A stretch of 64,000 bases of DNA from positions 62,001-126,000 of the forward strand of contig WFMF01000207.1 in assembly GCA_011033025.1 (NCBI GenBank). Reading direction: 5' to 3'. The translations under genes were made by a program, and so were the position numbers. Positions 7,500 to 63,100 of this stretch are shown here, piece after piece. The notes under the pieces are model-generated. The model ran no database searches and was not told where the DNA came from. It saw nothing but the letters and a program-made list of their open reading frames with translations. This DNA is from Beroe forskalii. Its lineage: Eukaryota > Ctenophora > Nuda > Beroida > Beroidae. Every line of letters starts with the position of its first letter. The first letter of the stretch is position 1.

Positions 7500-10304
7500 T
7501 TACGTGGGGCTGGCCATGTAGCAGTTCTGGAGGACGGCAATGCCCATGGCGCCGCGTTTACATGCCAGCGGTGCCAGCTGGGACCACTCCTTCCCATCGT
7601 ACATCTCCACAGTATCCAGGTAGTTCTCCCCACTGTGACCCCCTAGCGCGTAGAGTCTATTGCCTGCACTCACTGCCCCCAGTCCTGTTCTCTTAGTGGA
7701 CATGGGGGCAGAGAGCAAGGACCAGGAGTCGGAGGAGGGGGAGTAGAGGTGCACCACATCCAGACATTGCCTGCTGTCGAACCCTCCCACTGTAGCCAAA
7801 TACTCTCCCCAAACACTCAGTCCGTTAGCTCCGAAGGGGTGGGGAAGCGAGGCTACTGGAACCCACTTCCCGGCCCGCAAGTCGTACCTCTCGCAGGAGG
7901 ACAAGTAGTGAGTTCCGTCATTTCCACCCACCACGTACAGGCTGTTGTTGAGGTAGCACACGGAGCCGTACTTCCGAGGGGACCGCATTGTGGGCTTGTG
8001 GCACCGCCACACACCCTCCCTCGGATCGAAGGTTTCCAGAGTGTCTAGGGTTGTGCTGGAGTTCACCTGGCCTCCCACCGCGTATAGTCTGCTCTCATCA
8101 GCGCACACTGCCAGGTTCCTCCTGGGGACCTGCAGCTGGGGGATCCAAGTCCAACTTCCCTTCCCAAAGTCCAGACACTCGCCCACTTTGAGGGACTTAG
8201 TCCCGTCATGCCCTCCAGTAACATAGAGCACCTCGTCCATGACAGCACACCCGAGACCACTGCGGGGAAGACTCATGTCGGGCATATCGAAGCTCTGCTG
8301 CAGAGGCAGGTCGTACCGCTCCACTGTGTTGAGGAGGGACCGCTCCTTCACTGACAAGCCTCCCACTAGGAAGATGTAGCCTACAGTGCTCCGGCGTGGG
8401 GTCATTCTCTCTGTGGGGTGTACTGTGATGGGTGAGTGGGAGGAGGAGGGAAAAGAGGAGGGGAGGAGGAGGGGGAGGAGGGGAGGAGGAGGAGGGGGGA
8501 GGGGAGGATGAGGGGAAGAGGAGGAGGAGGGTGAGGAAGAGGGGAAGAGGGGGGAGGTGGAGGAGGGGGAGGGGGAGGAGGAGGATGAGGAGGGAGGAGG
8601 AAGAGGAGGAGGAGGAGGAAGGGGAGGAAAAGGAGGAAGGGGAGAAGGAGGAGGGGGAGGAGGAGGGAGGGAGGAAAAGGAGAAAGGGGAGAAGGAGGAG
8701 GAGGAGGAGAGGGAGGAGGGGAGAAGGAGGAGGGGGGAGGAGGGGTAGGAGTGGGAGGGGTAGGAGGAGGAGGGGTAGGAGGAGGAGGAGGGGGTGGAGG
8801 AGGAGGAGGAGGAGGAGGAGGGAGGAGGGAGGGGAGGAAGGGGAGCAGGGAGGAGGAGGGGGGATGGGGAGGAGGAGGAAAGGGAGGAAGAGGAGGAGGA
8901 GGATGAAGGGAGGAGGAGGGGGAGGAGGAAAGGGAGGAGGAGGGGGAGGAGGAAAGGGAGGAGGAGAGGGAGGAGGAGGGAGGGGAGGAGGAGGGGGAAG
9001 AGGAGGAGGGGGAGGAGGAGGATGGGGTGGGGGAGGAGGAGTTATTCGCCGAAAAGACTTTACTAGCTAGTTAATCAGTTAAGTAAATTTCAGAGGTCTC
9101 AACGACAAATTAATGGCCGATGACATTCACAAGTGAACTAATGAATTAAAAATAGCGGATGATGATAGAATATAGACTAGACTACCTTGATTTGATACAC
9201 TACTTCCATTTCAGAGAGTGTACCTGATAGGTAGCCATGAGTCCTGGTGGGCAGGAGGTGCCGGTTCTTGGCCTCATCCACCAGGTCCCTACACCGGAGG
9301 TCTCCTCTGACCATAGTGTTGGTCTCCACGACATCAACCAGGTAGCGGGGAGGAAGGAGGGGCAGTCTGACGTGCTCTAACAGAGCAGTGAAGTGAGGGG
9401 CACGGGAGGGTCTGTCTTCGTCAACCCACCTGAGGTGGGGTGTTTTAAACACGAACATAGAGGTTAGTAGCTATTGTACACAAGTACACTTTTACATTCA
9501 AAAACAGAGTAACGGGAACAAAGATTTGAGATAGACATGATATTACACAGATCAAAGTAAGAAGAGCGACAGTCGACAGTCAACGGTCAACCTACAATAC
9601 ACGATACTCAAACAGTGCTCAGCTTTTACCTGAATCACTAACCTAAGAACCATATTGAAGACTTCCTTCTCCTCCCTCACATCCAGGTCATCACTCTGTA
9701 GAACCTTTTGGAAGGTCATCATGCCCAGCCTCTCAAAGACCCCACTATTCAGGAACTCCTTTGAGTGACTAACCAGAACCCCCACCGTGATGTCTAGAAG
9801 CTGAGTCATTCCGAACTGTTCTGCTAGCAGCGAGTACTCCACAGCACTGGAAGCAGTTAGCGGTCCCAGGAGTACGGCACAGCAAGCCTCCTCCACCACA
9901 GGCAGACAGAGCAGGTTAGCAGCCCTCAGGACATCGGGCGCAACTTCAGGAGATATGTCCAGTTCTGTGGTGTAGAGGTATCTGAGAATGGTGTGGAGGG
10001 TGGCACAGGTCATGCCCTGCATCCGAACCTCCTTGCTGCTAGACTCCTTCATGGCACAGCTGAACATGCGCTTGAAGTAGGAGGATGTGGCTGCCAGGAT
10101 GACCCTGTGGGCTGGCACCGTGCCATCGTCACACACAATGTCTACGTCACACAGCCACCCCTCCTCCAGGAAGGAGAACAGGGCCAGGAAGCGCTCCTCG
10201 AAGCAGAACGCACCTTTTTCTGGGGTGTTTTTGGGCGTGTCATTCTGTATCATGGTCATGTTGAGTGGAGAGGAGTGGAGCAGCACGACACGACAAGGGG
10301 GCAC
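7500..10304 (-). CDS. Kelch-like protein (BTB-BACK-Kelch), likely CUL3 adaptor
   Basis: The exons are 10304-9643, 9429-9186 and 8408-7500. Phases match (2, then 0) and the model gives 604 aa, usual for KLHL proteins. A start at Met 10262 or 10256 is also possible. Exon 1 holds the BTB domain (CDVDIVCDDGTVPAHRVILA, then SYFKRMFSCAMKES) and the start of BACK. Exon 2 completes BACK. Exon 3 encodes about six Kelch blades with the paired Gly motif (LYVTGGHDGT, LYAVGGQVNS, LYVVGGNDGT, LYALGGHSGE). By family knowledge, BTB-Kelch proteins recruit substrates to cullin-3 ubiquitin ligases. The exact orthologue is not identified. The second intron is almost wholly a purine-rich tract on the plus strand. 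Confidence 0.9.
8432..9045. repeat. GGA-rich polypurine tract filling a Kelch intron
   Basis: About 600 bp of almost pure G/A on the plus strand (GGAGGAGGAGG-type), so pure pyrimidine on the coding strand. It ends about 25 bases upstream of the Kelch-exon acceptor at 8408/8409. The Arg/Gly/Glu-rich plus-strand reading frames over it are a product of the repeat. Confidence 0.9.
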
Positions 10305-10801
10305 ATCCTAGTTAATATGAGCTGCTAGAGTGGACTTTTTTGGACTTTATGCCGACCAGGGGCTTTTCAGAGTCGGCATGAAGTCTGGGGTTCGGTGGAA
10401 TGATAGAATATTGTGTGTTCAGTATATAACGACTGCAGCACAATGGTAACAAATACTGGCAGTTGAAAGTTTGTATTATTTTTCAATGTTTTAGAGAAGG
10501 TACATTTCGAATTTCACGTTTGTTGCTACAGTACAGCAACAACTATTTGCGGAAGAATGAATTTCTAGGCAGTCCATCTTACTTAGGCGATAATGTCGGT
10601 TGATGGGTGATAACTGGTTAAATGCAAAATTTGGATAACTCAGGGATCGTGTGTTATCGACAATCATCAAACTTGGATAATGCCTCATGGGGTAGTAATC
10701 GATGATAAACTCCCTTTCGTTATTTAATCGCTATTAGCCAATTTTGAGGGTACTTATAGGCGTGTAAATAAGTTGTATTATTGCACTCCTCACTTTGGCT
10801 A
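10305..10801. other. Kelch gene upstream region, no gene seen
   Basis: Contains the presumed promoter side of the Kelch gene, but no TATA or other element stands out. No supported gene. Confidence 0.4.
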
Positions 10802-10987
10802 ATACACTTAGAGCATGGCAAATGGTCATGACGCTAATAAAATTATTGCACTCGGCTTCGCCTCGTGCAATAATTTGGTATTGTCGCACTCGGCCTGCTC
10901 CTCGTGCGACAATACAAATTATTGCACTCGGCTACGCCTCGTGCAATAATTTCTATTAGCGCATTCCCAGCCATGCTCTAAGCGTAT
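10802..10987. mobile_element. Palindromic hairpin-in-hairpin element 1
   Basis: The outer arms are inverted copies: ATACACTTAGAGCATGGC at the left and GCCATGCTCTAAGCGTAT at the right, followed inside by CGCTAATA and its inverse. Between the arms are three small hairpins in a row, each an AT stem closed by CACTCGGCTTCGCCTCGTG-like sequence. No reading frame. Confidence 0.75.
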
Positions 10988-11102
10988 ATTATTTAATGAC
11001 GGTTATATAATTGTTGCTCCGATAATTTTTGTTATATAACGGCTTCAAAAATGGAGTTTAGGGGTCAATAAATAATTTTCATAAGATTTTAAAATTTTCG
11101 AA

Positions 11103-11207
11103 ATTTTGGGGTGTGATAATTTTTCCAGGTGTGTGATAACTGTACAGTTATCACACCCCTCAAAGAACAGTTATCACACCTTTGAAAAATTATCACACCC
11201 CAAAAAT
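11103..11207. repeat. Palindrome with GTGTGATAA arms
   Basis: ATTTTGGGGTGTGATAATTT at the left is inverted as AAATTATCACACCCCAAAAAT at the right. An inner GTGTGATAACTGT / ACAGTTATCACAC palindrome is present. It can form a cruciform or a long RNA hairpin. Confidence 0.65.
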
Positions 11208-11277
11208 CAAAACTTTAGAATTTTGTGATTCGTATTTATTTACTATATAAAATCATTTTAATCTGACTTTTAGTCAA

Positions 11278-11760
11278 TTCTCTCACTCCATTACGATACA
11301 CCAGTGTATACATCTTATGTTATCTTGTTTAAGCATTCACCGTTCACGTTAGTCATTATATGAGCCGCGCACGCACGTGCCAGTAAGACCACTTGCTTTC
11401 ACTCCATTACGATACATCAGTGTATACGTATTACGTTATCTTGTTTTGGTTTCATGAGTTTATGTATACCTTGTTTGTCATCATATGAGCCGCGCACCCA
11501 CGTGCCAGTAAGACCACTTGCTCTCACTCCATTACGATACATCAGTGTATACGTATTATATTATCTTGTTTTGGTTTCATGAGTTTTTGTATACTTGTTG
11601 GTCATTATATGAGCCGCGCACCCACGTGCCAGTAAGACCACTTGCTCTCACTCCATTAGGATACATCGGTGTAGCAGTGTATACATTTGTTATCTTGTTT
11701 TGGTTTCATGAGTTTATGTATACCCGGTAGTCGATCTATGAGTCGTGCACCTACTTAACC
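11278..11760 (+). repeat. Tandem array of about 120-bp units, four copies
   Basis: CTCACTCCATTACGATACA recurs at about 11280, 11398, 11524 and 11648. Each unit continues through CAGTGTATAC, TTATCTTGTTT, GAGCCGCGCAC and GTGCCAGTAAGACCACTTGC. Copies are very similar, so expansion was recent. No coding role is evident. Confidence 0.85.
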
Positions 11761-12178: not shown

Positions 12179-12360
12179 AATAGATTAATCAAACACCCTA
12201 AGGATACGTTTATATCAATTATCACACTCGCCTTCGGCTCGAGTGATAATTGGAATTATTGCACTCGCCTTCGGCTCGAGCAATAATTCGAATTATCACA
12301 CTCGCTTCGCTCGTGTGATAATTCATATAAACGTATCCTTAGGGTGTTTGATTATCCTAT
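12179..12360. mobile_element. Palindromic hairpin-in-hairpin element 2
   Basis: The outer arms AATCAAACACCCTAAGGATA and TATCCTTAGGGTGTTTGATT are perfect inverted copies that continue for about 30 bp. Inside are three consecutive hairpins with TTATCACACTCG, ATTGCACTCGCC and TTATCACACTCGC stems around TTCGG/TTCG loops. Architecture matches the elements at 10802 and 49296, with different arm sequence. Confidence 0.8.
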
Positions 12361-12612
12361 ATTCAATAACACATTGAAAATGTGGCACATGTATAATATT
12401 ACAGCAACCTATTAGATCAAAACATAATATAATCACGAATTATAACATAAATCCATCGAATTATAACCATTATATAACATTATTATCACGAATTATAACA
12501 TAAATTCACTGAATTTAATTTGAACAACTGAATTAAAGAAATGAAAAACGAAGCTCAACATTCAAAAAAAAATGTTAAAAGTTAATCAAAGATTTATGAT
12601 TGGTATAAAAAT

Positions 12613-29600: not shown

Positions 29601-32600
29601 AATGAAGGAACAAAAGCTTAAAAGCTTAAAAGTCGAATCAATGTGGAAAAGCGATAGTATCAACAATCGTATCAAGTGAAACAAAAGCTTAATAAGAGGA
29701 CCAGAAGAGTTCTTTCGAGAACAGTGATTGATTGAAAATCCCAAATAAAGGATTCCAAAAACGAAATTAGGGTCTCAAAAAAGCACTTATCCGACCTTCT
29801 GCTCGTAGAAAAGTGAGGCTCTGACATTAATAGTGGTCTTCGTACCTATTTTTATATTATATATAATATTCATCAACGTATTCTATATTAATATCTTACG
29901 CCAGGAGTGGGAGCACTAGAACTCAGATCACACGGCTTAGTAGCATTAATAACAGCAGGGGCGTTTAAATGCAAAACATGTGATGAATATAAGTATTTTT
30001 CGTATATAAGGTGCTTCAAGTGGTTTGCTGGTAAAGTAGCAGTAAGGCACTGAGTGAGTGAGAGGAGTTAATGAGCGGAGCGCGTAGTTCCGTGAAAATT
30101 AATAATCTGCATTTTTATCATGCCGCTTCCTCGATCAATTATACAAGAACCAAATAGTTGAATTCATCAAACTACATCATTTCCTAGCGAAATACTAAAA
30201 TATATAAAAACGAGAAAACCCGTTGGGTTTTCTCTTTAATTGGACGTTTAGTCAGTTGTACGTACAATTAATTTAACGAAGTCATTGATGCAATTTTTCG
30301 TTACTGGGGGTAGGGGTACAACGTAACGAATTTAAAAGATATTTTCATAGGATTTGAATATGAATAAAAGATATTACAGATTTTGCGATTGTAAAATTTT
30401 GTCGAGGGCACATAACAGTAAATAAGAAGAACTCAAGAGCAATGGTTTTCTGATACAAATTTCAGATTCGGAGAAAAGATTTGAATCCAAGCTCATTGAA
30501 ATCAAAATTGTCCGCATTTTGATTTGTTTAGAACGCACTTCTAACAGGAGTAATTGAAAATTCCTACTTCTGTCGAATCCTCACAGCAAACCATCAAAAC
30601 TACAAATATCTTGATGCTAAAGGATTATCGCTGATTTTCACAATGAAACAAAATGCTGAAGTCTTACCTTTTCTCCTACAATAGTGATTAGAGTTGATAG
30701 TCTTCTGTCGTAATCTCTTTACCAAACTCGAAAATTCCATTGAGAACGTAAATCATGACTTAAAACAGTTGAAACGTTTCCAAAGTACACAGTAATGAAA
30801 TGGCAGATTCTTCGTTAAAATGCAGTGTGCAGTTTTTGCGCGCAATCACCAATCACCATAGCAACGCGCACAACTGGTGAATCAATCCTTAAACTCGATA
30901 TTGTTTTTCGCGATTCCTCCTCCAACTTTGAGCATTAATTACGGAAAATCTAAAGCCTAAATTCAAATAAAAATAATGCTTCTCTAGAGGGAATTTATTT
31001 TTCTACTACCCTGCAAAAAATCGCGGGATTTCAACTCCGTTTTTAGCCGGCGTTTGGGTTGCGCTAAGCACGGTGCTTCAACTGCCTTAATCCTTTATAA
31101 TAATGATATTGCCGCGAAATGCGCATAGAATAGTAATAGCTATTAGCGGATAGCGAAGGCAAGTTTTTTTTTGTTTTTTTTCGGTAAATTCACCTTATTA
31201 AGTCTTAATGCGGGCCTCGGAATATATCAAGGTTATCATTCGATTAAACACACAAAAATATCACAGTATCATCCTAACACGAATATTACGGTATTCTTTA
31301 GAAATAGAGCAAACTTCTGAGAGGTTCCCATTTTTCGGAGGGTGGCTGCAGCCCCCACGACGCTCCCACCTGGCTATGGGCCTGCCACGAACGGAGATAA
31401 GTGCACTCAAGAAATACTTATGATCGATTCTAAGGGTGCTTCTAAATATTCTGTTCACGAAACTTGAGTAAAGGAAATATTTCGCACATCGCAATATTTC
31501 GCAAATCGCAATTATCTTTTTCTTCTTAGGAACTTCCTAAATATTTAAGAAGACTGACGCAGGTGTCGCAACCTCAAGAATTGAAAATCATTCTGAAATT
31601 TCCGATCGTGCGGCGCCATGAACACATGTACGCACGTGGTTATACTATTAAAATCAGTATCACGCACGTACAAACTGCCCTCAAAATACCCCCCATTGGC
31701 AATTTTTTATATCCACCCGGGGTTGAATCCCCCCAAAAAAATTAAACCCCCCCCATCGACACCAAAATGAGTCTAGATCGGTCTAGTCGATGCTTAGATG
31801 CGCACATGGGCAAATTTCATGGTACAGTCTGAAAGAAAGACCAGAAAAGGTAATGTGGGAAATGCACAAAAAATTATTAACAGGATTTGTACCAGTTGCT
31901 GATCATGACTAATAAAAAAGGTACCACTGCCATTTCAGAAAAAAAATGAAAAATCATAAACTTAAAAGGTACTCTGAAAGCCTGAAAAGGTAATTTGCCG
32001 TCGCCGTGGTGGATTAACCACGCTGTTACTTTTTAAATCCACGTCCTATGATGCCTCTGTAATCCTACCGTAATCCTAACGTTATCCTCCGATATAAGTA
32101 TAATTATCCTACCATCGAAACCATAGCTTACCCTAGCTCATTTTCAGAAATATGCGTAAGACCACCGAATGTAATCACTTAAATCTTTCACATCTTAAAA
32201 CCTATGATATTCAGTAAAATAATCCCAAAAAGCGGTAAATTTAATTTCCGATTCACTACTGATTATAGCTGCTTAACGCTTCTAACCTCTGCAGTACTCG
32301 AGTTTCCACTTGACGTCCAGGACGCTGCCTAGCGATGGCTTGGTAGCGGATAGCACGGACTTCAGGGTCAGGTGCTTCACCTTGTGGGACGCCAGGAACC
32401 TGGTGACTTTGTCAGAGGGCACCTGGAGATCTTCCAGCAACTCCTTGATAGTTCCTGTGTTGACGTTCCTCCGGCAGGCCTCCGGGATTCAACTGTTAAC
32501 TCACCCGATTAACTGCGGGATTCAGCTGTTAACTCACCCGATTAACTGCAGGATTCAGCTGTTAACTCACTCGATTAACTGCCTACAACTGCATATTGTA

Positions 32601-39010: not shown

Positions 39011-39029
39011 ACCGGGCATCTTATCATCT

Positions 39030-39130: not shown

Positions 39131-39138
39131 CTCCAGCA

Positions 39139-42100
39139 TTACAAGTGCGTCGTACTCCCCGTGCTATGCACACTGGCTCCAGTGCTAATGTACGAGCTGA
39201 GGACGACATCCCCGCTCCCGACGGAGCCGGGCGCTGCAGTTCTCTGATTGGCTGGCAGTCCGAGGGGTTCTACATTTCGATTGGCAGGGAGTTCTACGCT
39301 CCTATTGGCTGGTGATCTGCTCGAAGATGGTAATACTGTACTGTGATTGGATGTTGAGATGTTGTCACTGGAGGTGTGTCGAGAGGAGGGGCTGTGACTG
39401 GATCCGTAGGCGAATTGTTTGTTACGTAACATTCCTTCGCAAACTGAACCAACGCTCTGCAATCAAGAAAAAGTGAACGAAAATAGAAGTTACCAATTGA
39501 ACGACTTACCGACTCAGAAGCCCGAACAGTTGAATACAGACTAACAACAAATACATATTATATGTGCGCATGCACCCTTCGATGAAAGGATTGATAAAGA
39601 CGCGCATTTCACAATATTATGTGCAATTCACGTTTCATAGAATTTCCTGTCGAAAGTACAGTCTTTTTTACGCCTTTTCATCCATCGATCCATGTGTACA
39701 CATGAGGTTACAAAGTCTCTATTACCTCGAACGCTGGTTTCCAGTTCTGAAGGTACTCGGAGTGGTAGGGCGTGGTCGCTTCACCAGTGCTCGATCCCAG
39801 GGAGCTGAACGCGCTGTCTTGGTCGCCTGGTCATGGGGATATATTCAGACTTCTATGGTCATGGAGATATTCAGAGTCTTAATTTGGTGCATTTCTTGGG
39901 GGCATTTCCTCCACCCACCATTCTGCCCCCATATCTTGGGGGACGGGGACAAAATGTCAAAGTGGGTCGAAAAAGCTTGAAAATGCTTTAAAAACGAGGA
40001 AAAAGCGAAAGAAAACGTCAAAAAGGGCCAATTGCACATAATAATGGTATGTTTTGAAACATTTTGCATGCAAGTCATTGCATAAGGCATGTAACTTATT
40101 TATTTTGAAAAGGTGTCGGATCATAAATCCGAATTGAGAAATTTGGGATAGACGAATTGCAGTTGCCTAGCTTACTCTCCGGAGTAGGGTGAGTATAATA
40201 GGCTTGTTTGCAGTGTCTATTCATCAATAGTATTCTAATTACACTTAAATATTATTGTAAAACCCACCGAGAATGTGGCCAGCTTTGGTAGGGTCTCCCA
40301 CCACGTCATTCTCCTGCAGATCAGCTAACTTCTTGAAGAGAGCGGGAGTATCCACTGCAGCGTCCCCCTCGCCTCCACCTGGCGAAACGAGTGGGTTAAA
40401 CACGGTCACGAGTGGGTTTAATGCGGTCACGAGTGGTATGAAGAGGACATTGAGTTGGTTTAATACGGTTACGAGTGGTTTAATACGGTCACGAGTGGTA
40501 TGAAGAGGGCATTGAGTGGGTTTAATACGGTTACGAGTGGTTTAATACGGTCACGAGTGGTATGAAGAGGGCATTGAGTGGGTTTAATACACGAGTGGTT
40601 TAATACGGTCACGAGTGGTATGAAGAGGGCATTGAGTGGGTTTAATACGGTTACGAGTGGTTTAATACGGTCACGAGTGGTATGAAGAGGGCATTGAGTG
40701 GGTTTAATACGGTTACGAGTGGTTTAATACGGTCACGAGTGGTATGAAGAGGGCATTGAGTGGGTTTAATACGGTTACGAGTGGTTTAATACGGTCACGA
40801 GTGGTATGAAGAGGGCATTGAGTGGGTTTGATGCGGTCACGAGTGTTATGAAGAGGGGATCGAGAGAGTCTAGAGGATAATATACAATTGCTTTCAAAAG
40901 TCATGGACCATGGGGTTTTCAGTGCATACAGTGAGTTTTTATCCAAATGAAACTTAGTGGAGTGGTACTCGATTTCGTTGAGTGCGTGGGATCTGAGCAA
41001 AAGAATCATGTCATTAGTCAGTCATTAGTCTGTCATCCATAATATCATGAAGCACCGTTCAACTCCGTAACACCGAAAACCAATTTCAGGTTTATTCAGC
41101 CGTTATAAGCTCGGTGAAAGGCAATATGATCTCTGTCGAAATTTCATTAACATTGTCTTCAAGTTCGCACAAAGTGCCACCTAATGTCCACATGATAGGT
41201 GTTTATTTTCTGCAAGAAGTCGGAATTATTCAAATGTAGTGGGTGTCATGGAGGAGAAGGCGGTTATAACAGTAGCGTCATTTTCATGGGCTAAAGAGTT
41301 CACAACTGATGACGCGCAACTTTCCAATCGTCGAGGGTGACGTTTAATAATGCACTGTACCGTACCTTGATTCAATTACCCATTGAATGTACACGATATT
41401 GAGTTGAATTGGTTCAATCCTAGACAGAGAATAGAATCAGGGCATCCACGGTTATGGCGCTAACTCTTTCATTCTTAATGAAATTGTGAATCGAAACGAA
41501 TTCATCTGCGATCACAAATTAACTTAAGTACACGGCTGCATTGATAATTATGTCGTCAGTTGAGCACGATCAAGGATATATACACCATGAAAATAACACG
41601 ATGACGAACATAAAAACAGTGCGATCGGAAGTTGAGTGGATGCGGTTGTGAAACAGTCCCAGTTCACAGACGGTATTTGTTTAATAAGGTTCACGGTCTG
41701 ATGCTTCGAACGGTTTACACAGGACCCCAGTGTCTAATACTACAGTGCGCAGCAATTCGGTATGGAATGATATGCGGATATTTGAATGGTTTCTTGATGC
41801 TATGATGCTGCAGACATCAATCGAGTACGACACTGTGATAAACAAGAATCTTCCTTTACGTTTGATGAAATAATTGATAATCAAAATATGTACCCGGTAT
41901 CAATTTATCAAATCCCATGCAATATTGAAACTTATGGCTTTTATGGGATACCTACTTAAGACCCAATTCTGTCCAATTTTTTTAAGAAGGGTAAAAATCT
42001 GAAAATACGATCCGCATTTTATGCTTTTATGGCAGACACTGCCGTACTACTATTTCTTCGTCTTCAATTTTAAAATGTCATTTAAATTTTCAATCAGCCG

Positions 42101-45100
42101 TAGTATCGCGTATTTTTTCACGTATCTTCACGTATTTTTTCGCTTGTTTAACAATCCCAATCGAAATATTTTTGTTTTCATGTTAAACTTAAGTTTGTAT
42201 TTTTTAGAAAATACCACAATGCAAAATCGCCAATTTAGCGGCGCTGATTGAGGCCGACCAAAAATGGACCAATTATTATGGGCGGTCGTGGGCGCTGATC
42301 AGCGCCGATGACCGATCAACCACTGATCAACGCTGATGGCCACCGATCAATCGCTCAAAATTAACTGCAAATTCATTGCTAATTCATTGCAGGGTGATTG
42401 ACGTAGCAATCAAAATGTTACTGTTGGTATGGTAGCATCAGCTCGTCCTATACTCCTATGAGTGGCTGCCCTACCACAGCGGTCTGGCTTCAAAAAACAC
42501 AATAAACTAATTTGTTGCGGTTAAAATGAAACAATGGACATATTAAGATTTCGCAACATTACGCTATAAAAGGCCTTTTCAAAGTCTATTTGTAATAGAG
42601 GGCATTATTCGTTCGGGTTTTTATTATCATTTTCGAGTGTGAGGTACATCAGCAATCGATTATCGCAAGAACTTTCACCTGCGTGAAAACCCGACTGTGC
42701 ATGACTCACGAAAAAGGCAGAGAATTTAGGATTCTGTTTTTGATCACAATATTAATACTCATATTACTCAATGTTAAGTACAGTAATGTTATTCTGCTTC
42801 TTCCTGCCCCTCTGCCTCGTGCAGTTTGTCTCTAACATCTATTTGCAGATAAGCTGCAAAAATCATCAAGAACAATGTAGACACTAACATGATGTGTAAC
42901 AACTCCAACCCTATTGCTTAGTATCTAAATTTATCTGCTAAATGGGACGTTTAGCAACTGCAAGAGATTTCAAAGCTCAGGGCCTCTTGATTGGCTGGAA
43001 TATACTAGATATAATACAAAATCAAATTGATGGATAAAAACAGCTCTTGAGCAGTGAGAAGCAGAGTTTTAATAACAAAATAGTGAATTAATTTCTTTAA
43101 TCATCAGCACTTTTATTACTTGTCATAGCTATTTCATAATCTACGAAGTGAATTGGTCAGAAAAAATAATACAAAATCCGCATTGAACAGTAATTAAAAA
43201 ATCAATGTCCGCGTTGTTTTACTGGAGAAGCTAGCGCCATGGTAATAATAACCCTTTCTCAACCCATTCCTGCTCCTTACCTCCCTGAATTCCCTCTTTT
43301 TTCTGACCCTCTAGTTATTCTTGTGTCGTCCAGGTGCAGCAAAATCAGACATGGTGATGAGCTTTCTGCAGATCAGGTGATATAATAACTTAAACAACAA
43401 GAAAACAAAAAATGAGAAAACACAAAAATAAGATTTATGTAATAAGAAAAGATAAAGTGAGCAAGAAATTGAAGTTACATAAAAGAAAAAGAAACAAAAA
43501 GGTCTCGCATGATATTTTTAAAGTTATCTCACTGTGTGAGATAATGTTGTCAGGCGTTGCCTGCCCTCTCGTGCGCGCCATGACTCACAGAGTATTTTAG
43601 ATAAAATCTAAAATTTAAAATTTGACATAAAATTCAAAATTATATAATTTAAATTCAAAATTTAAAATTTGAACTAATGGGTCTGACGACGTCAGACAAA
43701 GATAATGCGTCTTTTGTTTAGTCTGTACCACAACAAAGTTGTTTACTTGTTTATTGTGTTTTTAAAGCCATGACGCTGTGGTAGGGCAGCCACTCACAGA
43801 GCGAGCTAGTGCTATCATACCAACAGTGACCAATAGTAACGCGTTACTGGGGCAACACAACATGAGGAAGAGCTCGAGGGACAGCAAGGTCAGTGCACCT
43901 TAGTAACTCCAGTAATGAAGCTTGTGGTTATATCCATCATTTTCACAACAGCAGTGGGCACCGGGAGTCCTGGAACAGAAGAATACGGAGGAGAAGGAGG
44001 AGTCTTTCCCTGCTCTTTCGACAGCGAAGGTAACCCAGAACCACCACACATCTACAAACCATTCTACATTTACTTAAACAATTCTACATATTATTATACA
44101 TCTACAAAACATCCCACATCTACATATTTTCTGTATCTTCTTCTTTACGAAACTGATTTTCAAAACTGATATTATACAGGAGCATTCTAGAAATTGCAAC
44201 ATCAAGATGTATTGGCGCGAGTGATATTATAAAGGAGCAGTTGAATGAATAAAAATGATCGAAAAAGTAACGTACAAACGTTCAGCGAGCGTGGAAGGTG
44301 ACTGACCTTGATCTTAATATGGTCGATCACACAGACTCTGATAACTTATTACTATAATTTTTATTTATTTATTTACTTTTTAGTATTTTGTATCAGATTT
44401 GTCTCAGTTTTTGTTTGTAGTAAAACAATTTGTAAATATTTTGTACATAGCCGTGTAAATAGTTTGTAGATATTCTTTTAGTATGAATTTTGTAATTAAA
44501 TGCGATATAAGACGCTTTCTTTTATTAATTTCATTAAATTTCTTTTAATATCTCATATTTGTTGGTTGTTGATATTTTCTGTAGACCTACTAAATCATGT
44601 GAGTTTTGTTCCTTCTATGTTATACAAACGTACGTGCATACCAACGAATAAATTTGGTCGCGTGCAGCACCTCCACCTTTTTCAGATGTAACAGTACGCG
44701 TTAAGGTAGTATACAAACAACGCCCACAAAACACGATCTCTGCTAACCATTTCTCAATGCCTTTGTGTAAATACAAAAGAGCGATTAGTCGTGATTGTAG
44801 TCGTGATTATACGGTTACATAAATCCTTTTTCCAGACAACTGCACAATTCGTGAACACAACGGTTTCATGAAGATGGTCTGCTACAATGGAACAACTGGT
44901 GAGAAATATCTGAGATGCTTCGACTCGGATACCAATTACACTATCATGACATTTCCAGTTCATCGAACCAAACAACTTGCAGTTACAAACATTTGCCCCG
45001 GTGATGTCACGATCTACCAGGCTTGTGGCATGGAAGACAAGACAATATTTGAGGAAACAAAAACACCTTGCGGCAACATTTGTCCTGCCAAGATAGGAAA

Positions 45101-48100
45101 TGGGTACTCCCGGAACTACTTGATTAGTGAACCTCTTCGTAAAATTTGCTATGAGGCAAAAAACGCTTGGTCTTCTGAACTTATTAAGTTCTCAGAAAGC
45201 TGTCTGGAAGGCATGACATCTGAATGTGAAGAAGATCTATATCTCTGTGATGGTATTACCAGTGAAACGTTTGGTAGAAAAAGTGATCTTGAAGAGTTTT
45301 GCAACGGGTACTACTACGGGATACATTGTGCAACAGAATTCGTCCCTGCACTTTTCATTCGCTGCACTGAATATTATTGTGATGTGGACGAGAAGCTCTG
45401 CAAAAGCGACCAGATCACGGGCTACTGTCAAAGCTTTAATTGGGATACTATTACTCTGCCCCTGTTTAACTTTTCTCGGTGTGGCCCCATCGGTTCGATC
45501 AACACATGGGGTCATAACCAACCGGTAAACTATGGATCCCTCTGTGTTGGCTACAAGGATCAGACAAATTGTAGTGACGCTGCTCGAATTGGACTGTTTT
45601 GTGAGATAGATGGATATGTTTCTTCAGTTGCCGATCAGATCGTCTGTAATCCTAATGTGAGAGATAGGGAGAGTTTGTGCGATGATGAACTGGACACTGC
45701 TTGTTTGGAACTGTCCTTCAGTTGTTACATTCACAAACACAGGCTTTGTGATGGGGTTCAGGACTGTTCTGATGGCATGGATGAATATGCATGCCCAGAG
45801 ATGACTTTCAAGAATTGTACCAGAATGTTACATAAATTGACCCTCAGCAGAAGCGGATTGCCTACAAAGTGGATACAGGATGGCTCAAAAGATTGTATAG
45901 ATGGGGAAGATGAAAATGGAGTTTGGCCCACATGTGGATTTGGAATTAACCAGCGTTTTGCCTCCACGGAGTCCTGTTCAGAAGTTTATCTTTGTCAATC
46001 CCATGGTTTCATACAGTTTAATGATCTGTGTGATGGGATCGATTCCTGCGGAAATGAGAACGAAGTATGCACAAAGTCACGCAACTTTTATAGTATATAT
46101 GATACCCCGGAGCATTCAAATGGGGAATGGAACCTCCTTCACTGTCTGAAAGGTCTAGAAAAACTTGACACTCAATTCATTAAAGGAGGCTGTGCAAGAG
46201 CCAAATTCTCCCATAGTGGCAATCAAGTCTTCGGAAAGACATCATTCATCCAACTCTCGATGCCACAAAGTCCAAGTTGGGATGCCGATTGTCAGCATAT
46301 CTACGGAGCTATATACGTCTACCTGAGCTGCATGAAGTTGTGCAGATCCTCAGTGCCCTGCATCAGTGAACTTGTCCACATAGACTCCTGTCTACATCAG
46401 TTCAGTGACAGAGTTTACAGTATTGCAAGCAATAAACAACTCACATTCCTTGTACATAACAGAGTTGATGGGACTTATCATAACGACATTTTTTCCTGTG
46501 ACAATGGTGCTTGTGTGGATTTCACCAAAGTCTGCAACCTTATTGACGATTGCGGGGATGGAACAGACGAAAGAAGTTGTACCAATCACTTCCGTTGTCA
46601 TGAGAATAACGAAATCATTCCTTTACCCAAGGTTTGTGACGGTTCAATCGATTGTTTTGACTTTTCCGATGAATGCAATGATCAATGCATAACAAACAAA
46701 AGACTAGTATCGAGCATGCTGGTTACTTTGTCAGGATGGGTGCTAGGGGTACTGGCGGTAGTGCTTAACATTACCATCATCCCTGAATCACTGAAATCCA
46801 TTAGAAGCAGCAAGACCAATGAGTCCCTAACCAACAACAGCCTTCTGACCCTCATAAACATTGGTGACTTGTTGGTTGGCATTTTCATCATCAAAATCTC
46901 ACTCTACAATTTTTACTATGGGCACCATTACTGTAAGATACAACTGGAATGGTTGACAAGCATCACATGTTCCTTAGCAGGGATTCTCAATTCTGTGGGC
47001 ATCATGATATCCGTTCTATCGATGACAGCACTCAGTTTATTCAGATTTTCCAGCATCTCCATTAACTTCGCAATCCCTACTCCAACCTCCAGGAAACACA
47101 AGCTTAAGTTAATGTTTGTTATAATAGCTATTGTATCATCTACACTTTTAATTGCACTCATCCCCTTAGTCAGGTCATTTGAAGATTATTTTGTCAACGG
47201 ACTCTACCATGGTTCAAAAATTCCATTATTTTTGGGAGCCCCTGATAAGAAAAATCATATTGGTATTTTAGAAGCGTATTACGGGCGGCTAAGGTCTGAC
47301 AATCTGTTGAGCTGGGAGCTGATTAGGCAACTCCTAGAACACATGTTTTCTCAGGATTACTCACCCCTTCCCAACAAGAAAGTGCAGTTCTATGGCAATG
47401 ATCCGGTCTGTACTTTCAAGTACCTGGTAAGGAAAGAAGACCCACAGTACCTGTTTGTGTGGATCATCCATACTATACAGATTGTCTGCTTCATGATCAT
47501 GACCGTTGCATACACCAGCATTGCTAGGAAATCGTCCCGGAATTCGGTGAAAGTGGCCGACAAAGCAACAGCCAGATCTTTAGATAAGCGTTCGCTAAAG
47601 GTACAAGGAGTTGCAACCCTCATTATTCTTACAGATTTCATAAGTTGGATCCCATTCATTGTGATTTGCATTTTACACTCCACTGAGGTTTTAGACGCAA
47701 CTAAGTGGTACTCGATATTCTCTCTGATCCTCAATCCATTGAATTCAGTAATCAATCCAATCTTACTGAATCCAAGGATGATGGAATCCATTAAGAAGAT
47801 GATAGATAAGATATCAATAAGGGCCCCGGTAAGCAATCAAGAGATCATATCGATACCACTAAATAGAATGGCTCCAAGGAGAATTACTGAGGATCCAGCG
47901 GTTGTCGTTAACGTTATGCATGGCGAGGAACGAGCTAGTTTCGAATTAGGTGACTTTGGACAAAAATGAAGTATTATTAAAGTATAACGAAAATATCATA
48001 AATTTGAGGATCAGACACCATCGTGCACAAGACTCACCTTCACTCCCAAAGACGTGCACACTTTCGTAGCTGCCACTGTGAGCCAGCGAGCCACCACCAG

Positions 48101-51100
48101 TGATCTGGGAGCCACCATTCAGCCGCCGAGGGACCGCCGACAACTGGTGTACGTCATTACGCATATCTGAGGAATTATAATATTATGGCAATTGAAAATT
48201 ATCTGAGGAATATGACAGTTATTTTGTTGAAATTTTGTGAATTTCAGTCTCTTGATTGTCTACTCTACACTTCTACAAATCAAAATGTCATGATTTATCA
48301 ATTATTTATAAATCCACTAACTGCGGAAAGGATAATTACATAATCGCATCTTCAAAGGAAATAATAGCCCAAAATATCGAAATAATTTGAAAAACTAATT
48401 AGCATAAGCTTTTTTTCAACTTCTCGTTCCTTACTAACTTCTTAAACCGTAGCATGAACTTTATATTATTTAACTCACAGCCCGTTCGCCGAGTTTAAAA
48501 TCCAGATTACGGAGCGGCCTCGTACTTTTTTCGGATCGTTAAATAATAATGTTACTACACACGGATATCGGTGTGGATTTCCCATATTCCACTCGGCTTC
48601 GCCTCGAGGAATATTCACCAATCCACACCTCAATAGTGTGTAGTAACATCATATTATTTAACTCACAGCCCGTTCGCCGAGTTTGAAATCCAGTTTACGG
48701 AGCAACCGCGTACTTCTTTCGGATCGTTAAATAATAATGTTACTACACACGGATATCGGTGTGGATTTCCCATATTCCACTCGGCTTCGCCTCGAGGAAT
48801 ATTCACCAATCCACACCTCTATAGTGTGTAGTAACATGATATTATTTACCGCGTGGCCGGATATAGCGGTTAAGTAAGATGTGTTATTTTTGAGTTTTTT
48901 TTCATACTTTTGATATTATTTTCACACTTTTGATATTATTTTCACACTTTTGATATTATTTTCACACTTTCGGTATTATTTTCATAGTTTTTGGTATTAT
49001 TTTCATAGTTTTTTGTATTATTTTCATAGTTTTGCTATTATTTTCATAGTTTTGCTATTATTTTCATAGTATTTGATATTATTTTCATAGTTTTTCTATT
49101 ATTTTCACAGTATTCAATATTATATTCACACTTCTTGTCAAGAGTTGCTAAAGGAACTCCGAGACGGAGCCTCACATCAAAGCTTTGATAAACAAGTCGT
49201 ATTGCTCACCACGTAAAGCCTACCGTTTAAAGACAAAAGTTATATTTATATGCTGAGAGTGAAGAAAATGTTTTCTTGCGTTTGAAAAACTTGGTAAATA
49301 ATATCGTTACATAACTCCCAACAGCGAAGTAACAAATTGTTTTCAACTCGGGCTGCGCCCTCGATGAAAACAAATCATTATTCAACTCAGCCTTCGGCTT
49401 CGGTGAATAATGCAATTTATGCCACTCGCTTCGCTCGAGGCATAAATCATGTTACTTCACTGTTGCTCGTTATGTAACTCTATATTATTTAACTCACCTT
49501 ATTGACAGGGCTGAACAGTCTACAGCAATTCTGTACTGTAGTTTTTAGATAAAAATAATAATGGGAATAACCTGAGAGCACGGTGCTGACGCTGAGTTTG
49601 TGGGGCACCATCTTATCACTGACATTGAGGAACTGGTTAGGTGATGAGGTCACGTGGTAACCGTTACTAGGCGTGTCTTCGTAGTGGGGAGGTGGGAGGG
49701 GGTTCTTGTACTGCGGACCCAGCTGAGGTGGCGAGTGTGTTAGGGATGGGGAGTGTAAGGGGGGTGTAAGAGCGAGGTAAGGTAGTGTTAGGGATGGGGG
49801 AGGGAGTGTCAGAGCGGGGCGAAGGGGTGTAAGAGCTGGAGTTTTAGGGATGGGGGAGGGAGTGTTAAAGAGGGAGTGTTAGGGATGGGGAGTGAAAGGG
49901 GGGTGTAAGAGCGGGGTAAGGTAGTGTTAGGGATGGGGGACGGAGTGTTAGAGAGGGGGTGTTAGGGAGGGAGTGTTAGGGATGGAGGGGAGTGTTAGAG
50001 CGGGGGAAGGGGTGTAAGAGCTGGAGTTTTAGGGATGGGGGAGGGAGTGTTAGAGATGAAGTGTTAGGGATGGAGTGTTAGGGATGGGGGAGGGAGTGTT
50101 AGGGATGGAGTGTTAGAGATGAAGTGTTAGGGAGGGAGTGTTAGGGATGGGGGAGGGAGTGTTAGAGATGAAGTGTTAGGGAGGGAGTGTTAGGGATGGG
50201 GGTGCTAGGGAGGGAGTGTTAGGGAGGGAGAGGGAGTGTTAGGGAGGGAGTGTTAGGGAGGGAGTGTTAGGGAGGGAGTGTTAGGGAGGGAGTGTTAGGG
50301 AGGGAGGGGAGTGTTAGAGCGGGGGAAGGGGTGTAAGAGCTGGAGTTTTAGGGATGGGGAGGGAGTGTTAGGGATGGGGGAGGGAGTTTTAGGGATGGGG
50401 GAGGGAGTGTTAGGGATGGGGGAGGGAGTGTTAGGGATGGGGGAGGGAGTGTTAGAGAGGGGGTGTTAGGAATGGGGGAGGGAGTGTTAGGGAGGGGGTG
50501 TAAGGGAGGGAGTGTTAGGGATGGGGGAGGGAGTGTTAGAGAGGGGGTGTTAGGAATGGGGGAGGGAGTGTTAGGGATGGGGGTGTTAGGGAGGGAGTGT
50601 TAGGGATGGAGGGGAGTGTTAGGGAGGGAGTGTAAGGGATGGAGTGTATGGGAGGGAGTGTTAGGGATAAGGGGAGTGTTAGGGATGGAGTGTTAGGGAT
50701 GGAGTATTAGGGATAGGGTGTTATGGAGAGGGTGATAGCGAGGGGCAATAGGGATAGGGAATTATGGTGAAAGGTACAGCAAAGAGTAAAAACTGGGCAA
50801 AGAGAGAGGTTATTAGCTCCCAGCCATTATGTGTACGGTGATGCAACCATCCCCCCACCCAAAGCTGGATACACTTGGGAAGTTAGTCACTCTAAACCGG
50901 TGCAGATTAATACAGCCTTACTTATGCTCTTATGACACCATTGACTATTCTCGGAATACTCGCGACAGCAACGGTACATTTGATGAATGTACCATTATTA
51001 TGAATTATCACAGACTTGTGTAAAATGATCTAATTCATAATCCCGGTCTCTCGCATCAATCATATTATAGATTCCGACACAGCCTTGCAAATATTTCTCT

Positions 51101-57100: not shown

Positions 57101-60100
57101 ATAGAGGGACACGAAAAGATTTGTAATAACTAATAACTTCTGATTTCATTTTTTTTCAAAATTCAAGCTCAATAATATTTAGTCTTAGAATCTCCATACC
57201 ATCTTATTCAGATAGGAAATAAAAGAAAATGTAGCAACTATTTTACAAAGGTGTGCAGTCTGATGTAAATATGGAGTCTGATGTGTAATTATGCTAAAAA
57301 TTTATGATTTATCGGATGTATAATATTATTCACTAAGCGATTTTTAATTCCAAATACTAAACACCTGCAGTTTGGAGGAGGGGGAGAAAAAAGGCGCCAG
57401 TCTTTCTATGAAGTGGGGTCATGAGTGCCAATAACATGTAATAGAATAATGTTCAAACCGGCATGTTTTCTCCGGTTCCTAATCTCACATGATGCTATCA
57501 GTTATATTGGGGCAGCTGTATTTGATAAAGTTGACTACTAGACATAGGTCATGTGAGGTCTGAGGGACACATATAGAATTTAATGTGTGAATCGAGTCTC
57601 ATATAATCGATTGGAAGATTGGAAAACAGAATTTAGATTGACAAGGATTTACATGTCATCAGAAAGGCTTCGCATAATGTTTTTTGATGTTCCTTGCCGG
57701 TCCTTGGGTGCTTGGGTAAGTAATTTGTAAAGCTTTCTTTGAGCAAAGCGTGTGCTAATGTGAGTTTTTTAATCTTATTTTTAAAGACCCGGAGTTATTT
57801 TTATGGCTACCAACGCGTGCTGAGGTGACATGCACTGAAAACAATGTTACTTATCCGCATATCCTTGAATATCTTTCAGAATATTTGAATATTTAGAATT
57901 TATAACGGTTGCAAGTTGATATTTAAACGCGTAATTAAGGTAGTTAGTAGACAATTCATACACTTACACTCGTAGATACATTCATCATCAACTCTGAGGT
58001 ACATGAAGATGAAGTCGCGCAAAACTCGAAAAATCTCTCTAGTATAAAGTCCTCCCAGAAAAAATAAACTAACAAAGTAGCCATAAAGAAAAACCAAATG
58101 TCTCTTACCCGTCCATCTTTGTCTTTGACAGTGGTTGGGTTGACGTACACGAGTTCCTTGGAGCCGGAGGATGCTTTCCTCCTCCGGTAGACGAGGATAA
58201 TCATGAGGAGGAGGATGATGAGGAAGAGGAATACTCCTCCTGCTACTCCTCCGATCAGGAGCGTCTGAAGAGGGAAGGAAGGTGAGATCTAGAGTCTGAA
58301 GAGGGAAGGGGGTGAGTTCTAGTGGAGAAGTGGGAAGGGGGTGAGTTCTAGCGTCTGAAGAGGGAAGGGTGAGTTCTAGCGTCTGAAGAGGGAAGGGGGG
58401 GTCAATTCTTGTGTCTGAAGAGGGAAGGGGGTGAGTTCTAGTGGAAAAGTGGACCTAAATCTGATTAAAGCGTCTAAAGAGGGCAGGGGGCTGAATTCTG
58501 TGGGGGTGTGGGATCTAAATAGTTAAAATAAATTCAGTAAAATGTGATTCCATCGTGGGATTCAATCATGAATCTTGATAATTGAGACCTTTGTCTTCAA
58601 ATGAGACGTGCCTGAATAGCGTTTCTTACAAGCTAATCCTTTATAACTTTATAATATTCGTTGAATGCGACGATTAGTTACTTAGTTAGAACAGAAAACG
58701 TGTCAGTTACCGCCAGTGCACCCAATACACCGTTCCGTTAACATTCGAAGTATCAAATTATATTGCTCAAATTATTATTCAATCGTAAGTGTCACGGAAC
58801 AGCAAGAATATTAATAAGTCTGGTTACCGAAATTATGATAATATATATTTCGTCACATGTTATTCAAGTAGGTGAACGTGCATGGCGTGAGCTGAAGTGT
58901 TTCACGATTATTGATGATGAATTTTACATTTAATAATGCACCCGAGAGGAATTATCACCGTTTCTAGCCAATAGCAATTGGCTGGATTTCAAATTACGAG
59001 CGGAATATCCAGGCTATTTATCCTTCACACGTGTGAATCTAGACAGTTAGGAATCATTGCACTGGACTGTTCTGGAAAGAGCCAGAAGGAAATAACATTT
59101 CCACAGCGTGCTAACTGCTAAGATCTGTTAAAATACTCAAACCCAAACAAAGGCATTCCACAATGTAAAACCCAGCACCATTGACAAGGCACCATCCTAA
59201 CAACACAAGATGACGTTGTGAAAAAACTGACGGCAATTCCGATTAGAGCTAAATAGATTCGTGTTTTGGTGATAAGACGTCATGTGGAATTGGGTTCACG
59301 TGGAATTAGAAATTGACTCAAAGACTCCGTGAGAAGCGCAAATTTACACCGAATTTCCACTTTAAAACAGTTCTATATTTCTGATAACCACTATATACAG
59401 ATGTAACTTACATAAATGCATTCTGTTGTTCGATATAAAATATGCTACTTAACGTCAATTAACATTCATTTATCGTTAGCCAAAGCATAATTAGATACCA
59501 TATTAAGGAATACACATACTCACATCCAAATAATTTGAATTGCTAGGTAGCTAATAAGGCAAACATTCTAATGATAAATTATCAAAGACACAAAGACACT
59601 CAAAATATGCCCGTAGAACATGCACGGCGCAACCAATCGAGCAATTCGATCCAATGAAATCCACCATTTTAATCCATAATGGTGGCGTCACTTTCCGTGG
59701 CCTATAATTTGTATACAGATAAAGGACTAAAGGACTAGAGGAGCTGTCTACTCATTCGATTAATGAACTCATAACCTCGGTTTTATCCCGTTTAAAAGAC
59801 ATGAAATATCAGATCACATTTATTAAGCATGATAATGATAATGACATGAGGAGCTCTTTGAAGCGTTCTGCCGCGGCAGAGTAGGATCAGGAGTTTCGAT
59901 AATGAGCAGATCTGAGCGGTTAATAATACCGCTAAAACACTGGATTAATTTGAAAAATAGTTATGAATATTAGTTGACAAAGGAGATTCGTCTTAAGGAC
60001 TTATATCAAGGATACGATCGACATAGTTCCGTTAATCAGGTATAATGACCAGTGGGACTAGGGACACGATATTTACTTTGATCTTCAAATTTTTGTGCTG

Positions 60101-63100
60101 TTAGAATTTTGAATCAGGATTCAGTAATGGGATCATTGCTGAAATCAAGAATCAAGGATCCGCACTTTAATCGCTACCATAACACATTATAAATCCACCA
60201 AATAATCCATAAAACAAGTAATTTTCAAACATTTAGCGAAACTTTGTACCTGACTGTTATCAGGTCCTATGATGGCAGACTCCACAGCTACAGTAACATT
60301 AGCTCGAGCTGACTTCTGTGAGGATCTGTCAGCCGGACTATCCCGTACTTCCACCACAAACTCAACCTCGTGGTAGCTTTCTGAGGTGGGTTAAAGTGAG
60401 GGGTAGCTTTCTGTGGGGGAAAATGTGTGTTAAAGTGAGGGGTAGCTTTCTGTGGGGGAAATATGGGTTAAAGTGAGGGGTAGCTTTCTGTGGGGGAAAA
60501 TGTGTTTTAAAGTGAGGGGTAGCTTTCTGTGGGGGAAATGTGTGTTAAAGTGAGGGGTAGCTTTCTGTGGGGGAAAATGTGTGTTAAAGTGAGGGGTAGC
60601 TTTCTGTGGGGGAAATATGGGTTAAAGTGAGGGGTAGCTTTCTGTGGGGGAAATATGGGTTAAAGTGAGGGGTAGCTTTCTGTGGTGCAAATGTGGGTTA
60701 AAGTGAGGGGTAGCTTTCTGTGGGGGATTGATGTTTGTAAAGGGTAGCAGACCACCAGGTTCAGAAAAGGAAGAAGAAAATCAAGACTTATTGTTTGTGA
60801 TTACCTTTTGGTCTGCAGATCAAAAGGACCCCTGAATGAAATTGAGTAAATAATATGAACATACGAGTAGATCTCTTTCTTCTGTTATTGGTAGAAGTGA
60901 AGTCCTCCTGTACATCGTCTTGCTGGGTATTATCAGGGGTGTTGGAAGGAGAGACTTTGAGTTGCAGTACCTCTCCCGTGCCACTCTTCACATCCCACCC
61001 TGGAAATGGAAGGGTTACCAAGGGTTACATTCAAATTACATTTAAAAAACCGGCGGAGTTAGCAAGGGTTACATCCGCCAGGGTACTAAATTATCAGCCT
61101 GAGCAATGATAACGATATTATTGAGGCTGATACCGAGATATTGCTCATTTATGTTGAAGCATGTTGTCATATATTGACGTAGACTTAAAGGTATTTCGAT
61201 CATGCCATTTCACCACTTCCCGCCTTGTTCTAATGAAGCTTGCTGTCAAGCGTTCTTAAAATAGAGCTTTATAGCGCTTACCTTTGCCATCCGACACATT
61301 TTGATTTTGACCATCAACGATCAACTTCTGATGGGACCATCTCTCAAGTCTGACTTAGCTATAATAACACTACGGTTGACATTGCAACGCAAATATCAAC
61401 CGCACAAACAGTCAAATATTTTCATAAACATGTACATTCAACGCACAATGTATACATGTCAAAAGTACTGGTCACACTCAGTATCGTGAAATATTTTAGA
61501 TGCACTTTGGCCTTTTGGCCCTCTGGAGTTTCAAAACAAGCTCAGTCAAGGAACAAACAACTAGTGCCAAAATCTGTAACAATATGGCTTTAAATCTATG
61601 CCTGGTCCCTTTAAATTTTGACGTTTTTTTTTGTTTTAATTTTACATTGGAGTGCCACAAAACATGTATTGTGGCACAGCACTGTTCCTGTACCTGCGTT
61701 TCTTAAACGTTTCATGGACCGTGGATCTTGTTTAATATTCTTACTGGAAACTGGGGAAGCCTACATGGAGACATATATTGCAGCACTTCGGCACTGTGTT
61801 ATTTAGATGAAAATACACATGTACGAGTAGTGCTTGGAGCAGAATATAACATGGCTTATTACGTCATCATAGAAACTAGACCGTTATAAATCTTTCATAG
61901 ACGCATAAAACAAATCATTGTCATATTTGTCATATCTGTCTATTACGAATTAACATAATATTGATTTGGAAAAATTTTAAAGTGTACTCTACATGCTTTG
62001 ATCTTCAATCTTTCAATGAATATTTTAAGTTTGGTAAGACGAAAATTGCCGGGAAAGAAAATACAGTATGTGTGAATTATTCATTCTGTTCTTTGAACCA
62101 ACAATTTGGATAAAATTTGGAAAAAATCTTTTAAAATTAGTCGGGACGATATTTCTGAATCAGGGGTGGCAGGTACCTTTTCACCACCACAAAAATAGCA
62201 TTATGTTCGCAGTATTGCTCTGAAATTAAATAAATTCGATACAAAATATTATGTTACATAATTCCAGTCAATCGTTATAATTCTGAATAGATTCATTTTC
62301 CAGAAAATTAATAGCGCAGCCCGGCGTAGCAAGGAACAATTTAATAACAGATTTATTTAATGTTCTGTAAGTCGCATAATATTTTCTCATGTTACATCAA
62401 GCATGAAATAATCACAGGAAGTCGGGGTAGGAATAAGAAATGGTGAAAACTTAGTTGGATGTAACTGCCTTATAGTCGGGGACGTTATAGCGGTTTTTGT
62501 TCTCAAGAAAATGGTGGATTCATGACATCTAGACCAATCTATGGCGCTGGCATACTATTTACTACATCTTTGTTAGGCCATCATAATTCATATTGGGTTT
62601 CAGTTAGTTCAGTAAATCAGTAAGAATAGATAAGTTAGTAGTGTAGCCCTAATTGTAGGAATAAGGAATTATCTTCTTATCTATAGAGTTTATAGAGATT
62701 CAAGATTCAAGGCTGCTCAGAATCAATTATTATTTTTAGCTTCTACGTGATTATCTTAATTTCTCAGTTATTTATTTTAAGTTGAATCATTTTAAAGCTT
62801 ATAATCACTTATCCACTTAAACATTTTAAATTTTGTTGAAACTAGATTAAGCTATAGCGAACACCTTACACTCAAATCTGATGTTATGCATTAAATTCAA
62901 TAGTATGTTATTTAATAACTAACAAGTTCATTGACTAAATCATCACACCGTGTAAGTTGAGGAGTATACTTAATACTACTTGAATATATACTAACTTGAT
63001 GTTATTAACAATGTAGATCTACACTGCATATGGTTAGCGTGACCAGGTGGTGGCTGTGTTATACAAGTGGAATACCAGCCAAATGCCGCACCGGGATTAT

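Follow-up and report, generated by a model that had tools for sequence, protein, structure and literature searches.

Tandem repeats that extend across exon-intron boundaries are known from amphioxus, where these so-called 'mirage' minisatellites occur in Adh, in the globin genes BflGb6 and BflGb9, in troponin C and in PGBD5. In the accessible parts of the two reports, regular splicing is described as undisturbed and the copy number as varying between haplotypes (PMC3087553, PMC3902484), and the creation of introns by mirages is proposed (PMC3087553). In the present work, tandem arrays next to exons were analysed in a 64 kb stretch of DNA (the window in the following) from contig C256, part of an animal genome of 216 Mb that probably belongs to a ctenophore, as well as in a random sample of the same genome. 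Two arrays at 58-61 kb of the window are of the mirage type, and boundary arrays were also found throughout the sample. Like the amphioxus mirages, they are tandem repeats that span exon-intron boundaries on the 5' or 3' side and carry copied splice signals. They differ in that they come from what is probably another phylum, occur also at stop codons and were encountered in a random sample of one genome. Their units measure about 30-65 bp, compared with 150-160 bp in the amphioxus globin mirages and 10-72 bp in Adh3, as far as the accessible text gives these values. Mirage-type minisatellites are a known kind of repeat, the phylum is probably new, and they are spread through the sample; in a partial view of the open-licence literature, neither ctenophore mirages nor mirages at stop codons were recognised. 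We consider it probable that the arrays are boundary-anchored mirage-type minisatellites of a tandem-repeat-rich genome, which arise by duplication and are shaped by a selective filter.

Tandem arrays were called with Tandem Repeats Finder (TRF), and acceptor strength was scored with a matrix whose training sites lay away from arrays. At 58-61 kb the minus strand carries a transmembrane gene that is well supported, as three of its exons, 60865-60999, 60250-60380 and the transmembrane exon 58109-58264 (TLLIGGVAGG...), join into one open frame; no convincing Pfam family was found for this gene. The array at 60386-60727 is built of a unit of about 38 bp that contains CACAG directly followed by AAAGCTACC. 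The latter is the start of the true exon, which begins with AAAGCTACCACGAGG, and is present in nine units of the array; all nine share the first 9 bases of the exon and each of them thus presents a decoy acceptor. The decoys score 5.5-7.5 as compared to 6.4 for the real acceptor. If they were spliced from the upstream exon 60865-60999, 9 of 9 would meet an in-frame stop after six codons, and this exon is in phase with the array's last acceptor but with no decoy among the nine. In the array at 58260-58488 the units hold an acceptor (CCCTCTTCAG) and in some copies also the first five exon bases, ACGCT. Its decoy acceptors at 58296, 58355, 58383 and 58415 score 7.2-8.5, the real site 8.9; for two of them a stop would follow 11 and 12 codons downstream, and the other two shift the frame with no stop in the stretch read. 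Units bounded by splice sites have also been described for the dual-specific AGGT arrays of polyubiquitin genes (PMC10809524). According to the accessible part of that report the polyubiquitin units are coding and variably included, whereas most decoys in the window would truncate the protein or shift its frame. Furthermore, AGGT is not found at the unit borders of the 58260 and 60386 arrays, whose main decoys read AG/AAAG, AG/ACGC, AG/ACAC and AG/ACTC.

Another version of the 58-61 kb region, either an allele or a paralogue, is located on contig C731. Its exons are 93-95% and its main intron is 90% identical to those on C256. The arrays sit at the same two junctions in both copies, but they are only 80-85% identical, with 84-89 gapped columns and thus many more gaps than the flanking intron, and their lengths differ (342 bp on C256 versus 282 bp on C731, and 229 versus 139 bp). 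One unit on C731 carries 36 bases that match the exon start, preceded by a CACAG of its own; judged by its sequence, this unit appears to be the trace of a duplication across the junction. In a genome search, the exon 60250-60380 was found only on C256 and C731. The 40389 array described below matched only itself and the 58260 array only itself and C731; all hit numbers for arrays are lower bounds. The arrays therefore look local.

A first-pass annotation of the window had placed six arrays close to acceptors on the intron side. All six were confirmed by TRF at about these places, between 5 bases inside and 16 bases from the acceptor (gaps of 16, 3, 10, 14, -5 and 5 bases in coordinate order), but the exon models at 40378 and 49722 are unsupported, in contrast to the other four. 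These two acceptor boundaries were set by eye, the one at 40378 also coming from one run of a gene-finding hidden Markov model (HMM). The coding-strand pyrimidine fractions, in the same order 0.98, 0.45, 0.61, 0.78, 0.71 and 0.64, bear out the statement that three of the arrays are strongly pyrimidine-rich. The (TCC)n-like array at 8439-9041 on the minus strand occupies most of an 801-base intron before the Kelch exon (7515-8422, minus strand, HMM model, acceptor boundary 8422) of a KLHL-like gene, which is well supported by Kelch, BTB and BACK domain matches (Kelch_1, E=1.2e-60 on 7503-8435). This array is of a pyrimidine-tract type, and no copy of the exon start was found in it at 18/24. Three 33-bp units at 32483-32582 (minus strand) lie flush with the acceptor of a COMMD3-like exon (32287-32479, minus strand, HMM model), which reads GAG instead of CAG. 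The unit agrees with the last 12 intron bases in 11/12 and with the first 12 exon bases in 4/12 positions, which makes it a borderline mirage. Support for this exon is fair, as its join aligns gap-free but weakly to the solved COMMD3 8f2r_C (E=0.0044) and the Pfam match to COMM_HN (E=0.0073) is below the family cut-off. The array of 62-bp units at 40389-40845 is located 10 bases from the proposed acceptor 40378, from which its assignment to the minus strand follows. The corresponding exon 40268-40378 is weakly supported, being predicted in one HMM run and absent in another, and no Pfam match was found for it. The array at 49737-50727 (minus strand), 14 bases from the proposed acceptor 49722, consists of CTAACAC and pyrimidine-rich units and contains 43 CTRAY motifs; a branch-point role of its CTAACAC-type units would be a guess. 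The proposed exon 49572-49722 (minus strand) is a weak candidate, an open frame absent from both HMM predictions, and the HMM assigns 49737-50727 to a plus-strand intron. Exon bases were not found in the 8439, 40389 and 49737 arrays. These three could be plain intronic arrays or ancient ones that have lost their junction copy.

To obtain a view beyond the window, 160 bins of 10 kb were picked randomly within the known stretches of 102 contigs, 33.2 Mb in total, and 25 of the 160 bins, i.e. 250 kb in stretches labelled L009, L020, L031 etc., were analysed. The 102 contigs are those known from earlier sequence matches, so that the sampling frame is not identical with the whole genome. TRF repeats with a score of at least 50 make up 15.6% of this sample; for the ctenophore Hormiphora, the accessible part of the genome report gives 13% tandem repeats (PMC8527503). 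Exon models were obtained for the sample and the window with the self-trained HMM, which recovered real genes (methionine synthase, TRRAP, NSF, NDUFS7 and CSTF3), but also yields false exons and fuses adjacent genes, so that counts are approximate. Only exons scoring at least 8, with at least 45 bases and little repeat, entered the junction count. A masked gene model conceals exon bases within arrays, and an unmasked one predicts false exons in arrays (e.g. L020 5831-7486); counts from the latter are given only beside the masked ones. Two donors placed at array edges by the masked model, L020 7980 and L031 8115, moved to 8010 and 8138 in the unmasked model, in agreement with homologues.

Arrays were present within 25 bp of 13 of 135 acceptors (9/102 in the random sample, 4/33 in the window) and of 11 of 140 donors (11/105 and 0/35, respectively); by homology, two of the 11 array-bearing donors (L026 1628 and L032 7214) are in fact stop codons. 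The rates at acceptors and donors of the random sample are alike (P=0.82). Thus, the absence of arrays from donors, as noted in the first pass, is correct for the 35 predicted donors of the window and does not extend to the sample, and an excess at acceptors over donors did not appear in these 250 kb. An acceptor-only pattern was dropped on the basis of the 11/105 donors. In the sample, boundary arrays were checked against homologues for both junction types; the window has them at acceptors only. The methionine synthase gene (L020) has a 2.06-kb array, composed of 24-bp units, whose end lies 2 bases from the acceptor, and at the donor side there are two copies of 31 exon bases together with GTGAGTTGAGAA (12 intron bases); the joins at acceptor and donor are gap-free to 4ccz. 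In TRRAP (L031) acceptor 753 is duplicated with 5 exon bases, donor 8138 is duplicated with 24 exon bases (here homology fixes the exon end only), and at donor 1854 the exon end plus donor recur over about 5 kb, with 62 copies matching at least 18/24. The boundary-spanning units at the L020 and L031 donors hold 24 to about 45 bases. NDUFS7 (L032) has CTAATTCCC-type units, with 12 CTRAY motifs, in an array that ends 17 bases before the acceptor. The arrays in CSTF3 (L026 1418-1650) and NSF (L032 7198-7271) start in the last codons and carry copies of the stop codon into the flank; for CSTF3 the alignment extends to residue 715/717, and that of NSF ends about 20 residues before the end. The array-bearing junctions in L009, L011, L012, L025, L027 and L033 are without confirmation by a solved homologue. 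At L027 548-701, where the predicted gene lies on the minus strand, the 25-bp unit TGCCTTCCCTTGGGTCAGGTAAAAG (plus strand) has acceptor and donor motifs back to back.

Copied splice sites with exon bases at both junction types, and two cases at stop codons, were thus seen directly. They can be accounted for if tandem duplications arise locally almost anywhere. A duplicate spanning an exon-intron junction would be tolerated if splicing uses the copy beside the intact exon, i.e. the last acceptor or the first donor. The surplus copies would then fall into the intron and be free to expand, and copies that lengthen the exon would be removed by selection. The expected outcome would be arrays that are cut off at the junction and contain decoy splice sites, and the same logic would hold past a stop codon. 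We infer both parts of this scheme, the duplication followed by a selective filter and the exclusive use of the exon-proximal site.

The main alternative suggested by the first-pass annotation, that the acceptor region with its pyrimidine tract is itself a hotspot of repeat expansion, appears unlikely to us. In its favour, acceptors have an array edge within 5 bp more often than expected from uniform placement within the 56 array-bearing introns (11 versus 2.7 for window and sample, 8 versus 2.4 for the random sample), the 8.4 kb array consists almost entirely of pyrimidines, and with the window included the acceptor to donor split at up to 25 bp becomes 19:8 (P=0.052). This excess of edges is the part of the hotspot claim that stands, but it is seen at donors as well (7 versus 2.6 for window and sample, 7 versus 2.4 for the random sample), although at least two of these donor edges are masking artefacts with the true junction inside the array. 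Flush arrays also occur at donors and stop codons, and the random sample gives a split of 14:8 (P=0.29) at 25 bp and of 8:7 (P=1) at 5 bp. The edge excess is raised by clipping as well as by the masked gene model, and part of it is a masking artefact. Furthermore, the junctions are poorer in repeats than intron interiors. When full introns were tested 15 bp inside the acceptor, 15 were covered by arrays compared with 19.8 in circular shifts, and 7 compared with 19.9 at donors; as circular shifts let arrays wrap round intron ends, the placement null was added, and the truth is bracketed by both. Local copies, defined as 24-base stretches (at junctions, centred on them) matched in at least 20/24 positions within 600 bp, were found with the masked model at 4/136 acceptors and 5/141 donors (two being stop codons), together 9/277 junctions, and at 9/1206 exon-interior, 460/2725 intron-interior and 299/2260 intergenic positions. 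The unmasked model gave 7/141, 12/147, 52/1250, 394/2616 and 305/2279, respectively; here donors differ from exon interiors (P=0.04), and acceptors and donors are both below introns. Since junctions are repeated less often than intron interiors, these data argue against a hotspot, and the low density at junctions combined with the edge excess fits arrays that may start across a junction and are clipped on the exon side. The mean pyrimidine fraction of arrays is 0.62 near acceptors (n=17), 0.39 near donors (n=5, one of them a stop codon) and 0.52 elsewhere in introns (n=34, with the 49737 array counted on the wrong strand; acceptors versus elsewhere, P=0.044), a skew that would result from the copying of local splice sites.

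Slightly less probable still is a role of the arrays in splicing, i.e. that they are retained because multiple branch points, pyrimidine tracts and acceptors strengthen or tune it. The CTRAY motifs of the 49737 and NDUFS7 arrays, decoys that score like real acceptors, and the persistence of arrays at the same junctions in the two gene copies would be compatible with such a function. Against it, use of any of the nine decoys in the 60386 array would truncate the protein, and between the gene copies the arrays are far more gapped than the flanking intron. CTAAY is only mildly commoner upstream of array-free acceptors, so that its branch-point role here is at most putative, and a search for a clear branch-point motif found none. 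Neither an acceptor-specific hotspot nor tuning is needed to explain the arrays. That the arrays descend from dispersed elements with splice sites of their own, mobile or introner-like, is very improbable: the 60386 unit does match two other contigs at 69-71%, but the two other arrays searched are unique or confined to the homologous gene copy, and units include bases of the neighbouring exon. For the 60386, 40389 and 58260 arrays, the three of the six that were searched, at least 4, 1 and 2 genome matches were obtained, respectively. We assign an equally small chance to an artefact of assembly or gene prediction. Most exon models are HMM-derived, two window exons are unsupported, and the masked model shifted two donors to array edges, yet solved homologues align gap-free across array junctions, and two contigs bear arrays at the same two junctions.

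Several observations weigh against boundary-anchored duplication as the origin of the arrays. Three of the six window arrays are without exon bases, and the fourth (32483) is borderline. Look-alikes of the 60386 array (69-71% identity) are present at C737:49950-50210 and C553:77808-77998, where the exon was not found. The array edges at junctions exceed the uniform expectation, which leaves room for a junction-linked cause. In the unmasked model, acceptors are indistinguishable from exon interiors in their frequency of local copies (P=0.66), and the two clear arrays of the window miss the 20/24 threshold of this count. Finally, exclusive splicing at the exon-proximal site is deduced from frame arguments.

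The TRRAP gene points to a possible link to the birth of introns. The protein resulting from the join of L031 1854 to 7328 aligns gap-free to human TRRAP (E=2.1e-21), and the 5.5-kb intron between them (1855-7327) and the upstream exon end in the same 20 bases, with AG/GT at both junctions, as in the polyubiquitin arrays (PMC10809524, accessible part). About 5 kb of this region (L031 1809-7103) are built of copies of the upstream exon end and donor. The next TRRAP intron (L031 7768-7945, 178 bases) is array-free and likewise has the last 20 bases of its upstream exon exactly repeated at its end. Overall, 3 of 166 predicted introns, a set outside which the 1855-7327 intron lies, share at least 9 bases with the upstream exon end: L031 7768-7945 (20 bases), L033 2331-2474 on the minus strand (15 bases) and a 130-base predicted intron in L030 (9 bases); the shuffled expectation is about 0.035 at 8 or more shared bases. 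The interiors of two shared-end introns match only themselves or one further place on the same contig. Membership of the TRRAP introns in a dispersed element was rejected, as the short one (7768-7945), which alone was covered by the search, matches only itself. Shared ends are the pattern that would be expected from intron birth by duplication or staggered-break repair, and a recent gain is possible. Homogenisation by a growing array could also put a copy at the acceptor. In the described intron gain by tandem genomic duplication (PMC4974935, PMC3087553), the duplication likewise spans AG/GT, and here a few introns end in a copy of the upstream exon end. In contrast to that system, as presented in the accessible text (PMC4974935), gain is here a possibility suggested by end copies. 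A more far-reaching and rather doubtful extension would be that in this lineage, probably ctenophore, tandem duplication feeds exon ends into introns at every coding boundary, that strict splicing nearest to the exon goes beyond sequence strength, and that introns are also made in this way, e.g. the 5.5-kb TRRAP intron.

In the accessible literature, mirages are reported from a handful of lancelet genes (PMC3087553, PMC3902484). Their scatter through a random sample of a probable ctenophore genome points to their emergence wherever tandem duplication is abundant, and to splicing as a process that would render many of these duplications harmless. One exon with a row of equally strong splice sites offers a test bed for the choices of the spliceosome. 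For annotation they are a warning, since exon ends beside repeats are easily mis-called, as at the two donors in L020 and L031.

A number of further features were noted. Window positions 464-600 hold a dispersed element with 91-99% identity to 39 other places among 40 scored candidates; its ends show shorter inverted matches. Near-palindromic units (AATTATC-CACTCG...CGAGTGATAATT type) form short arrays at 10840-10953 and 12217-12324 in a long predicted intron. Two long single-exon frames (33813-36158 and 44836-47933) combine LDL-receptor A repeats with a seven-transmembrane domain, which is below cut-off in the 33813-36158 frame. An Rfam scan of the window gave no match. Contig C1134 (13.3 kb, GC 17%) carries mitochondrial genes, and no tRNA was detected on it by ARAGORN with bacterial settings. 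All of its open frames of at least 80 residues are on one strand, and its COX1 is diverged, phenylalanine-rich and reads through four TGA codons, traits which we take to be ctenophore-like among animal mitochondria.

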